Shown: piece by piece, positions 3,367-38,536 of the stretch | Position numbering within the stretch: the first letter of the stretch is position 1 | Layout: the number at the start of each line of letters is the position of its first letter | Origin: an uncultured Desulfobacterales bacterium | Lineage (GTDB): Bacteria; Desulfobacterota; Desulfobacteria; Desulfobacterales; JAHEIW01 | Reading direction: 5' to 3' | Assembly (NCBI GenBank): GCA_947259495.1 | Contig: CAMYLV010000019.1 | Coordinates: 1-48,888 of the forward strand | Length of the DNA: 48,888 nt | Made by a program: the position numbers and the translations under genes | The notes under the pieces: model-generated | What the model saw: the letters and a program-made list of their open reading frames with translations, nothing else | Databases searched by the model: none | What the model was told of the DNA's origin: nothing

Positions 3367-3444
3367 AACATTACTTTATAAATTCTTTTTTGAGTAAACG
3401 TTCAGCCACTAAGACACAAAGACAAAAAAAAAGCATTTGAAGTT

Positions 3445-3546
3445 TATACCGTTTTCCATAATAATGTTCCGGGATACGGAAGTACGGCATAAAGGGTTGT
3501 AGAAAAAAACGTTTGAATATCGCAGCGTTTTTTAACAGCCCCTATA
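3445..3546 (+). repeat. Dispersed double-hairpin repeat, copy A
   Basis: About 102 bases starting TATACCGTTTTCCATAATAA and ending in CCCTATA. It has two consecutive palindromic parts. The first half contains the inner stem TTCCG/CGGAA between weak TATACCG/CGGCATA outer arms. The second half pairs GGTTGTAGAAAAAAACG with an imperfect complement, CGTTTTTTAACAGCC. It lies between the importer ATPase gene and the first opine-dehydrogenase gene. This copy has diverged more in the right-hand stem than copies B, C and E. Related copies are at 7865, 10775, 14208, 14240, 28185 and 38356. Confidence 0.9.
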
Positions 3547-3594
3547 AACCGTGGCTGAACTATTACCAATAACTTTGAAACGGAAATATTTAAA

Positions 3595-7863: not shown

Positions 7864-7864
7864 T

Positions 7865-7967
7865 TATACCGCTTTCCATAATAATGTTCCGAAATACGGA
7901 AGTGCGGCATAAGGGATTGTAGAAAAAAACATTCTAATACCGGAACGTTTTTTTGACAATCCCTATA
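7865..7967 (+). repeat. Dispersed double-hairpin repeat, copy B
   Basis: A 103-base copy with the full structure: TATACCGCTTTCC at the left, the inner stem TTCCG/CGGAA, then GGATTGTAGAAAAAAAC paired with GTTTTTTTGACAATCC, ending CCCTATA. The GGATTGT/ACAATCC arms differ from the GGTTGT/ACAACC arms of other copies on both sides, a compensatory change that keeps the stem paired. It abuts the 3' end of the USP fossil, so its arrival may have contributed to loss of that gene's end. Confidence 0.92.
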
Positions 7968-8130
7968 AGTAAAGAATTACCCCCTTAATCCTTCCTATTT
8001 TTTAATAATGCCAAAATTGCTGACATTTATTGCTGTTTTAGATGACAATATTTGTAATTTTCCTTTCCATTGAAACTCCCCGACAGTTTTATGTATCTGT
8101 AATCACATCATAAAATTTGACTTGTTTTTT

Positions 8131-10716: not shown

Positions 10717-10774
10717 TATTTCTCCTCCTTTGGTTTGTAAAGTTCAGCTTTATTTCCTCTCCTCAAAATTGTTT

Positions 10775-10877
10775 TATACCTTTTTCCATAATAATGTTCC
10801 GGAATACGGAAGTGCGTCATAAGGGGTTGTAGAAAAAAACGTTGGCATAACGGAACGTTTTTTTGACAACCCCTATA
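10775..10877 (+). repeat. Dispersed double-hairpin repeat, copy C
   Basis: A 103-base copy from TATACCTTTTTCCATAATAA to CCCTATA, with the inner stem TTCCG/CGGAA and the long second stem GGGGTTGTAGAAAAAAACG / CGTTTTTTTGACAACCCC. It occupies most of the gap (10717-11036) between the DUF6868-like gene and the next plus-strand gene. The rest of that gap shows no gene. Confidence 0.93.
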
Positions 10878-11036
10878 AGTCTCTTTAAATATTGAGATAA
10901 TTTAATCTTTTAATTTTTTTGTCGGCGGATCCGTTGCCTGATCCGTCATTTCGGATAGCTGGAATGCGCATCTGAGCATGCGGTTTCTGTTATTCAAAAA
11001 AGGCGCCGTGCATTCGGCCCCGGAGGGAGTTTGAAG

Positions 11037-13373: not shown

Positions 13374-13955
13374 TCATTTTTTTAAAATATGATCAAAAAT
13401 GAATTTACGATGGTTTTTTATGGGTTTCAGGTTATTGGTGAGCTTCATCTGGATAATGGCACCATGCCAGCCGGCGACAATGAAACTGGCTGTGTCTCTG
13501 ATATCTAAATTTTTCGATATCTTACCGTCCTTCTGAGCTGCCGATAGAAGCCGGCTGTAAGCGTCGACCATCATATCGATGGATTCTTTGAGCTTCGTGC
13601 GAAATGCCGGGCTTAAATTGCCCATTTCCTGGGCCAGGTTACCGATCGGGCAGCCGCCGGCATAATTTTGGGACTCAAAATGGTCCATAAAAGCCGTTAA
13701 AAACCCGTAGATCCGGTTCAACGGTGAAATGGAGGTGTCTTCCAGCGTTTCTTTGGCAATCCGTTTAAAATGGGCCGAAAAATAGTCAATGATTTGAAGT
13801 CCAAAGTCCTCTTTACTTTTGAAATAATTATAAAATGATCCTTTGGGCACGCCGGCGGCGGTCAATATTTCCTGGATACCGGTGTGGTTGAATCCTTTGA
13901 GATGGATAATCTCGGCGCCGGTTTCAATGATCCGGTCTCTGGTATTTAACGGCAT
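13374..13955 (-). CDS. TetR/AcrR-family repressor, NemR/AcuR-like
   Basis: A 193-residue regulator with an N-terminal helix-turn-helix (GIQEILTAAGVPKGSFYNYFKSKEDF, about residues 26-51). The ligand domain carries the motif YAGGCPIGNLAQEM with Cys102, as in NemR/AcuR-like regulators that sense electrophiles, quinones or acrylate by cysteine chemistry. AAGGGAG lies 8 bases before the ATG. An operator sits between the -35 and -10 of its own promoter, so it is probably autoregulated. No reductase of the NemA type is adjacent; the nearest downstream gene is the SpoIIE phosphatase. Confidence 0.88.
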   Translation of the reverse strand: MPLNTRDRIIETGAEIIHLKGFNHTGIQEILTAAGVPKGSFYNYFKSKEDFGLQIIDYFSAHFKRIAKETLEDTSISPLNRIYGFLTAFMDHFESQNYAGGCPIGNLAQEMGNLSPAFRTKLKESIDMMVDAYSRLLSAAQKDGKISKNLDIRDTASFIVAGWHGAIIQMKLTNNLKPIKNHRKFIFDHILKK

Positions 13956-14207: not shown

Positions 14208-14410
14208 TATAGTGGTTGTCAAAAAAACGTTCCGATATTTATAGGAGTTGTCAAAAAACGTTGCGGTATTCAAACGTTTTTTTCTACAATCCCTTATGCC
14301 GCACTTCTGTATTTCGGAACATAATTATGGAAAACGGTGCAAACGTTTTTTTCTACAACCACTTATGCCCCAATTTCATATATCGGAAAACTATTATGGA
14401 AAGCGGTATA
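14208..14410 (-). repeat. Dispersed double-hairpin repeat, copy D outer (interrupted by a second copy)
   Basis: On the minus strand this runs from TATACCGCTTTCC (14410) to CCACTATA (14208). Removing 14240-14341 leaves 101 bases with the normal structure, including AGTGGTTGT and ACAACCACT arms. The first-half arms have drifted (TTTTCCG...GAAATTG). The interruption falls in the loop of the second hairpin. The rest of the 13956-14484 gap shows no gene. Confidence 0.88.
14240..14341 (-). repeat. Dispersed double-hairpin repeat, copy D inner (nested insertion)
   Basis: A 102-base copy lying wholly inside the outer copy and in the same orientation. It starts TGCACCGTTTTCC (14341 downwards; the usual TATACC has changed to TGCACC) and ends CTCCTATA at 14240. 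Flanking outer sequence reads directly across the junction when it is removed. This is direct evidence that the element can insert as a discrete unit. Confidence 0.88.
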
Positions 14411-14484
14411 AAAGAAATGAGACCGATTGTACCGAGGGTGCGGCCTTACCCGCCTGATTTATCTTAGGGGTGATAACTTAACGA

Positions 14485-14892
14485 CTATTTGCCCGTCCAT
14501 CGCAACCAGATGGCGGCGGTCCAACCCCAGATGGCGTTAAAAACCACTACAAACAGGGGCGTAAGCATCCCCAGCTCAAGACCCATCGCCCCTTTTTTAG
14601 CTTTCATCGGAAAAACAACGAAAAGCTGAACCAGGGTGGGGCCCAGACTGTAGATAAACCCCCGCGACCAGATGCGCGATTGCATCATGGGCAGCAGAAA
14701 CAGCATTCCCCAGATCCCGCCCCACACCAGTCGCGGATATAACCATGCTGCCGAAAGCTTGGGCGCTATTTTCACACCCAGGGCCATTGTAATGCCAAGC
14801 TCTCCGAAAATCCAAACTGCCAGACTGTTGAGCAAACCACCCAGAACTCCCGCAGCAAATACCAAACTAATTTTCTTGGCCAGGTTATTCAT
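14485..14892 (-). CDS. Integral membrane protein, unknown function
   Basis: A 135-residue protein with about four hydrophobic helices: residues 8-30, 47-68, 75-95 and 108-130 (LFVVVFNAIWGWTAAIWL). A short positively charged loop (FPMKAKKGAMGLELG) comes before the last helix. A strong AGAGGAGG ribosome site lies 9 bases before the ATG. No family is recognised with confidence; YagU-type membrane proteins have a similar look. It stands alone on the minus strand between the nested repeats and the coiled-coil protein gene. Confidence 0.65.
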   Translation of the reverse strand: MNNLAKKISLVFAAGVLGGLLNSLAVWIFGELGITMALGVKIAPKLSAAWLYPRLVWGGIWGMLFLLPMMQSRIWSRGFIYSLGPTLVQLFVVFPMKAKKGAMGLELGMLTPLFVVVFNAIWGWTAAIWLRWTGK

Positions 14893-27898: not shown

Positions 27899-28184
27899 AT
27901 GATTATCCGTCTTTAAAATACACAAAAATGGTGGCCTTGTGTTTTATACAATCGGGGAGTCGATTATCCGACACTTTGTTGATACCATAATTTAAGCCCT
28001 AAAGAAAAAATGGCAATCGATTTCCATCGAACTCATTATAAAGTTTGATCCGCTTGAAGTAAAGGAATTCATCCCGCTGGCCTCAATTTTACATACCACC
28101 CAATAACAGTTGACCGTTTATGCTTGCGAATATCCGCGCACCAAACCGGCCACAGGCGCAAGCTGGCAGTTGTCGTTGGGGATC

Positions 28185-28287
28185 TATACCGCTTTTCATA
28201 ATAATGTTCCCAATTACGGAATTGGGGTATAGGTGGTTGTAGAAAAAAACGTTGGAATAACGGAACGTTTTTTTGACAACCACTATA
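28185..28287 (+). repeat. Dispersed double-hairpin repeat, copy E
   Basis: A 103-base copy, TATACCGCTTTTCATAATAA to CCACTATA. The second stem is nearly perfect: GGTGGTTGTAGAAAAAAACG against CGTTTTTTTGACAACCACT. In the first half the central stem has changed but the outer TATACC/GGTATA arms still pair. It fills the gap between the adaptor gene and a tiny membrane peptide gene; otherwise 27899-28304 shows no gene. Confidence 0.93.
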
Positions 28288-28304
28288 AAATATCAGGGAA
28301 AGAA

Positions 28305-38069: not shown

Positions 38070-38355
38070 CAGCGCCTTAAGACGATGCTTTTTAGGGTTA
38101 CCTAAAACACTCAGAATATATTTGGCGTGGGACTAAGCATTGAGCCGAATGCATTTATCCGCCCATTTCCAGACATAATCCTGCCGCTTTTTCTATTTTT
38201 TTCCCACTAGTATCAATTGATCACCTAATTTTTAAAGAATTACGCTGACTAACCGATACTAACAATAGAATTTGTGATGATTTAATCAATAGGTTGCCTT
38301 CAATAGTACGGTTTATTCATCCAGGATATATTTAACATAGCTTTTGCAGAGATTT

Positions 38356-38458
38356 TATACCGCTTTTCATGATGATGTTCCGCATGGCGGAATTGCGGTA
38401 TAAGTGACTGTAGAAAAAAACGTTAGAATAAGGGTACGTTTTTTTAACAACCACTATA
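38356..38458 (+). repeat. Dispersed double-hairpin repeat, copy F
   Basis: A 103-base copy with the best-preserved first hairpin: TATACCGC...GCGGTATA enclosing TTCCGCATGGCGGAA. The second half has AGTGACTGTAGAAAAAAACG against CGTTTTTTTAACAACCACT, somewhat degraded. It lies between the zinc-ribbon gene and a hybrid kinase gene; the rest of 38070-38536 shows no gene. Confidence 0.92.
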
Positions 38459-38536
38459 AGACCAGGTCTTCTATCCGTTGAGCTTGAGACCGACCCTTAC
38501 GCTTTGAATTTATAGCAACCGAATAGGACCGACATA

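Follow-up and report, generated by a model that had tools for sequence, protein, structure and literature searches.

Small mobile elements residing within palindromes are known. For the PATEs of Haloquadratum walsbyi, six insertions of one PATE into another are described (PMC3119063). REP dimers are described as well, some of them inside longer palindromes (PMC3733652), and a review of bacterial MITEs mentions their insertion into one another (PMC10969869). In the open-licence PMC texts we recognised neither a report of the repeat family presented here nor one of bacterial self-nesting at one loop base; the self-nesting of one sublineage at one base was unmatched in the literature that we found.

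The locus considered here belongs to a 48,888 bp contig (C19, the whole of which is called the window below) within a 69-contig draft genome (4.44 Mb). We think it probable, with moderate confidence, that positions 14208-14408 hold an older copy of a mobile repeat whose larger loop was entered by a younger member of its family, through site-directed insertion without target duplication.

The repeat is ~101 bp long, has no coding capacity and forms two hairpins. Its left half, L (31-32 bp), reads TATAG(G/T)GGTTGTCAAAAAAACGTT...TATT, and its right half, R (69 bp), reads CAAACGTTTTTTTCTACAACC(C/A)C...CGGTA, with TAA as the usual next letters. L pairs with the first part of R in a long hairpin that has a loop of ~10 bases. 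Upon folding of four copies, this first hairpin appeared in all four, and the second one, made by the rest of R, in two (the 3447 and 7867 copies). The element ends, TATAG and CGGTA, have no common repeat beyond TA; terminal inverted repeats of 15-30 bp are absent, and even with flanking letters included the match does not exceed TTATA/TATAA. The TATAGTGG start resembles the ends of Correia elements.

Five uninterrupted copies were found in the window, all on the minus strand; four of them are 77-90% identical to the remaining one, used as reference. The coordinates are given in Table 1. Rfam produced no matches at the gathering score in window positions 3000-39000, and the search of a plasmid collection gave no match.

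Table 1. Copies of the repeat in the window, parts of the nested copy and neighbouring genes.
Feature	Position	Strand	Basis or remark
Uninterrupted copy	3447..3546 (3444-3550 with flanking letters)	-	Repeat finder; orthologous empty site in G001
Uninterrupted copy	7864..7970	-	Borders from repeat finder
Uninterrupted copy	10774..10880	-	Borders from repeat finder
TetR-type regulator gene, neighbour on one side	13374..13955	-	Pfam
L1, left half of outer, older copy	14208..14239	+	Aligned to L consensus, positions 1-32
Inserted inner copy (L2 14240-14270, R2 14271-14339)	14240..14339	+	TATAG...CGGTG
R1, right half of outer copy	14340..14408	+	Half-by-half parsing of compound copy
TAA flank, usual right-hand target letters of the family	14409..14411	+	TAA opens 70/83 right flanks
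ORF, neighbour on other side	14485..14892	-	No Pfam match
Uninterrupted copy, GTGG subfamily	28184..28290	-	Borders from repeat finder
Uninterrupted copy	38355..38461	-	Borders from repeat finder

The sequence-only reading had seen at this locus a complete copy nested within a second copy, and half-by-half parsing agrees: the units follow in the order L L R R (L1 L2 R2 R1), and removal of the insert restores a 101-base element. The borders had to be moved. The insert is not the 102 bp of 14240-14341 but 100 bp, with the CA at 14340-14341 belonging to the outer copy, and the latter ends at 14408 (14411 including the usual TAA) rather than at 14410. The insertion point, ATATT/CAAACG, stands as proposed. 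It lies in the loop of the larger hairpin, which is left-hand on the plus strand; the earlier "right-hand" suits only the minus orientation, in which the window's five remaining copies lie.

The inner copy is identical to the outer one at 83 of 100 positions and ends with CGGTG, CGGTA being the end of most other guests. The two abutting right halves have 69 bases each and are 81% identical. Without its insert, the outer copy aligns with each of the window's five uninterrupted copies at 82-88% identity (103-104 positions, 2-6 gap letters). The 203-base stretch folds into nested hairpins with z = -3.5. Arm covariation was considered as proof of nesting and set aside as weak: the pairing of nested versus crossed partners was 158 versus 154 (4 better, 1 worse and 6 ties of 11).

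Beyond the reach of the sequence-only reading, the nesting was found to recur at the same base across the genome. A whole-genome search gave at least 55 matches, with 40 of 295 first-look candidates scored. Searched genome-wide with up to three substitutions and no gaps, the 25-base double-R junction occurred 10 times and the 25-base double-L junction 20 times, and neither had a control hit; chance is thereby excluded for the double junctions at the window locus.

A census was made from 102 source sequences (the window, 30 best-hit loci and 71 stretches) that contained 117 clusters. The sample is biased, its loci being the 30 best matches and the exact AACGTTTTTTTCTACA places among the matches listed; that list held at least 301 hits at up to three mismatches, and at least 156 for the control pattern. 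Among the 117 sampled clusters were 78 LR, 10 LLRR, 6 LLR, 2 LRR and one each of LLRRLR, LLLLRR, LLLLR, LRLR and RLR, as well as 9 with R only and 7 with L only. The doubled R that nesting leaves was present in 14 of them. Twelve of the 14 have the window's junction, including L005 and L006, in which small changes hid it from the double-R junction search; in the other two, L104 (TATTC^AAACG) and L095 (TATTC^CAACG), the insertion is one base further on. For each of these three junction classes, removal of TATAG...CGGTA leaves a loop known from single copies. The loops among the 78 LR copies included GGTATTCAAACG in 20 cases, GATATTCAAACG in 7 and GTTATTCCAACG in 5, with five loops unread. Guest and host had the same orientation in all 14 cases, although the parsing joined same-strand units only and an inverted nest would be missed. 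Self-insertion of this kind is thus found at about a dozen further places in the genome, and the repeat seems capable of targeting itself. The inserted unit is TATAG...CGGTA in the orientation of its host, and the entry point was the same base in hosts from several lineages.

An assembly artefact would be conceivable in a 69-contig draft with many short repeats; since 12 loci have the identical junction in copies distinguished by private letters, we judge it extremely improbable.

Several other arrangements were seen. In a longer form of ~240 bp, the right hairpin contains a block of additional hairpins, bordered by TTCCGTA and CGGAACATT (L083, L086, L102, L108, L124, L134, L135, L141). Four copies (L204, L205, L210, L223) are left-truncated and have the right end only, each starting within or just before the second hairpin; as pointers to an autonomous parent they were rejected, because, as far as the 260 bases upstream tell, they are truncated copies and not the termini of something larger. 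Some copies stand head to tail with little or nothing between them (e.g. CGGTATATAGG) and look as if one had been inserted at another's right border (L009 and L126 here, L075 and L162 in relatives). A different repeat of ~60-190 bp, 87-92% alike between its occurrences, is located near several copies (flanks of L007, L010, L020 and L101).

The doubled halves also bear on whether L and R were duplicated separately in tandem, by slippage or unequal recombination, with no insertion. LLR, LRR and LLLLR forms do occur (10 of 117 clusters, LLLLRR included), and we retain slippage as one cause of the LLR, LRR and LLLL forms. As the origin of the nests we consider it very improbable: slippage at the shared CGGTA would retain TT in CGGTATTCAAACG, whereas the common right-half junction is CGGTACAAACG, and nested insertion yields both junctions in one step. 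Unequal recombination between tandem copies, which the sequence-only reading had itself named as the alternative, predicts LRLR after crossing-over in tandem LR, while the order observed is LLRR.

The nests also define the target. At the outer cluster borders, mostly those of single copies, the left flank ended with T in 69 of 90 cases and the right flank opened with TAA in 70 of 83. The preferred letters were T at -2 (58%), -1 (77%) and +1 (92%), and A at +2 (99%), +3 (94%) and +4 (60%), i.e., flank letters were conserved on both sides of the copies. Taken alone, the flanks can be read in three ways: as duplication of TA, as a TTATA repeat at the termini, or as insertion at TT^TAAA. An orthologous empty site in the genome G001, corresponding to the 3447-3546 copy, has the length of the joined flanks, with 4 of 26 letters different (2 within the 16 bases around the site), and it cannot separate TA duplication from a TT^TAAA target either; the nests do.

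Nested copies are built-in empty sites, with the host's uninterrupted sequence given by its relatives. Because that sequence is known, the nests define both ends of this very small element exactly and reveal the lack of target duplication, a point on which single copies are ambiguous. Every nest has the left TA, and the letters on the right are those of the host loop (CAA, AAA and CAA in the three classes); therefore, TATA is part of the left end and nothing is duplicated. A TA duplication of the Tc1-like or Correia-like kind suits the single copies and the G001 empty site but does not account for the nested junctions.

The host loop, TATT^CAAACG, differs from the preferred TT^TAAA only at the first right-hand position. 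Since the window alone has 209 TTTAA sites on both strands, loops make up a small share of the possible targets, and under a generic target rule a lineage confined to loops would not be expected. A general preference for hairpin loops was rejected, with no excess at 77 reconstructed sites versus 632 control points (one-sided p = 0.98). By eye, L021, which is outside the 77-site set, sits in a terminator-like hairpin.

Guests and hosts were then compared by sequence diversity. The mean distance was 5.4% among ten guests with the common junction, 12.8% among their ten hosts and 14.8% among 63 single copies. A tree was built from 87 rows and 104 columns, with 12 guests, 12 hosts and those 63 of the 78 LR copies that have complete ends; all other clusters were left out, among them the guests of L014 and L020, while L095 and L104 were in the tree and outside the tested groups. 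Out of 84 inner branches, 46 were open. Nine of the ten guests fell in one branch (97/83), the L008 guest being outside it on the free tree, and a single clade of all ten was not rejected (p-AU 0.571). For the hosts, a single clade was rejected (p-AU 0.00076), with seven changes needed. The ten tested guests are thus compatible with one young clade, and their hosts are nearly as diverse as the single copies. The low diversity of guests in hosts of high diversity bears out the earlier view that the inner copy is the younger one.

This comparison largely refutes a single origin of the whole set from a compound LLRR element that formed once and transposed as a unit, which we hold to be quite improbable: one host clade is rejected, and host diversity is more than twice that of the guests. 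Such a compound may nevertheless have moved whole in the case of the window, L002 and L004, where host and guest are near-identical and the sites unrelated.

A search with the guest signature had 30 hits. All ten hits with 0-1 mismatch continue into a host right half, as do two of the six with two mismatches (L206, L208) and none of the 14 with three mismatches. The other two-mismatch hits are L209, which is the LLR copy L003 ending CAAGCAAC, the truncated L204 and L205, and the single copy L207 (= L012). Since the hits with 0-2 mismatches sort in this way, the 12 common-junction guests are the entire close signature set. All 12 were seen nested only; the single copy nearest to them on the tree is L012.

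That guests of this sublineage were met in nests only, and invariably at a single base, would also follow from gene conversion between copies, the main rival to site-directed insertion, by which an inner copy established by few insertions spread to other family members through homologous recombination between dispersed repeats. Copies evidently recombine (L100 and L005), and immediately to the left of the junction the host sequence varies less than that of single copies (0.106 versus 0.162, nine hosts). To the right of the junction, however, host diversity is on par with that of single copies (0.016 versus 0.014), and L104 and L095 have junctions of their own. On the contig C11, moreover, the nested copy L009 lies beside an uninterrupted sister, with 0 of 71 positions different between the R halves and 4 of 32 between the L halves; rare letters common with the sister stand ~8 bases to the left and ~16 bases to the right of the insert, so that the tract of a donor is squeezed. 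We consider the spread by gene conversion rather unlikely. Without insertion it is difficult to account for the first nesting, and for the later hosts we place fresh insertion ahead of gene conversion.

Unequal recombination does occur in the family, and it looks like decay of nests after their formation. L100 shares 49 identical right-flank bases with L005, and its R combines an inner-type arm with an outer-type tail, as expected if recombination between R2 and R1 deleted one unit. L146 and L119 match the decay pattern by eye, and in L013 and L016 the left half is present in four tandem units. Sharing of one flank only, immediately adjoining the element, was observed in two pairs, L005/L100 (49 bp on the right, 100%) and L016/L020 (98 bp on the left, 98%), as though the flank had travelled along by recombination or co-mobilisation.

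The repeat family was present in 7 of 40 genomes: this genome, three further genomes from its genus and another three from the order. A scan of named genomes with an exact pattern returned 33 stretches, 30 of them from the MAG Desulfobacterales bacterium CSMAG_771 and the remaining three from a further three MAGs (Desulfobacteraceae or Deltaproteobacteria) with a single stretch apiece, in a collection from which records near this genome may be missing. In the six other carriers, the double-L junction had no hits, and the double-R pattern had five hits with three mismatches, all ordinary loops by their letters; no nest junction was found in these six relatives. Among 58 clusters parsed from relatives there was no LLRR.

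It had been suggested to map the exact junctions and to look in close relatives for a single, uninterrupted copy at this locus. The former was achieved, in three variants genome-wide; the latter was not found at 14208-14408, the relatives compared being too distant. The orthologous gap of G002 (~215 versus 442 bases) had no match to the element, that of G001 contained ~2.3 kb of other sequence without an element match, and in G003 the two sides of the locus are on different contigs. The claim of past mobility is upheld by the three exact junction variants, by the uninterrupted C11 sister and by a same-genus genome that has no copy in the orthologous gap.

As to the mechanism, a recombinase acting in trans would insert the element at a short target TT^(T/C/A)AA, which at chromosomal sites would mostly be TT^TAAA. 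This target would be mimicked by the loop of the element itself, TATT^CAAACG, and one sublineage would have taken to the loop. Later recombination between the doubled halves could turn nests into LLR or LRR and multiply the left half. The duplication-free joining and the terminal hairpins suggest a mechanism like that of single-strand IS200/IS605 (Y1) transposases; the chemistry of PATE and IS605-type elements is single-stranded. IS200/IS605 elements are not known to recognise any side but the left, so the two-sided conservation of flanks counts against this likeness.

The genome has three genes with a Y1 domain, of RAYT-like length (262-335 aa). As linked partners of the repeat they were rejected, since none of the three is flanked by copies within ~1.5 kb, and in a non-exhaustive search neither a gene linked to the family nor a gene-bearing copy was seen. 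Y1 genes occur in 7 of 7 carriers and in 29 of 33 non-carriers, which makes their presence uninformative.

More tentatively, we suggest that the loop-only sublineage may have moved its target from the chromosomal TT^TAAA to TT^CAAAC in the hairpin loop of its own family, and may live today inside other copies only, homing to one base, in one orientation and without target duplication, as a parasite of its own kind. If true, this would be natural target switching in a transposase-free repeat, and a family absorbing its own insertions.

Compared with known systems, the repeat is similar to MITEs such as Correia and Chunjie in size, copy number and lack of coding capacity, and differs from them, as from classical MITEs of the DDE-transposase type, in having neither terminal inverted repeats of 15-30 bp nor target duplication (PMC10969869). 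With REP/GTAG repeats and their RAYTs it has in common the hairpins and the RAYT-like Y1 genes of the genome; REPs, however, are 20-40 bp long and end with GTAG, while the present repeat has ~101 bp, two hairpins and the ends TATAG...CGGTA (PMC3733652).

Palindromes near both ends without inverted terminal repeats, and a short target that is not duplicated, are features found both here and in PATE and IS200/IS605 elements. By this analogy, the element probably works like IS200/IS605-type or PATE elements, although we do not file it as a member. PATEs are described as likewise short and gene-free, with palindromes near the ends, no inverted terminal repeats and a short targeting sequence (PMC3119063). 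Unlike for PATEs, a related IS605-type transposon was not found here, and the guests form a single sublineage that occupies one base in the loop of its own family. The SMR-A element of Haloquadratum is similar in its length of ~110 bp, in the absence of target duplication and in its location inside near-terminal palindromes of other elements; SMR-A has inverted terminal repeats and targets a different class of elements, the PATEs, whereas in the present case guest and host are of one family (PMC3119063).
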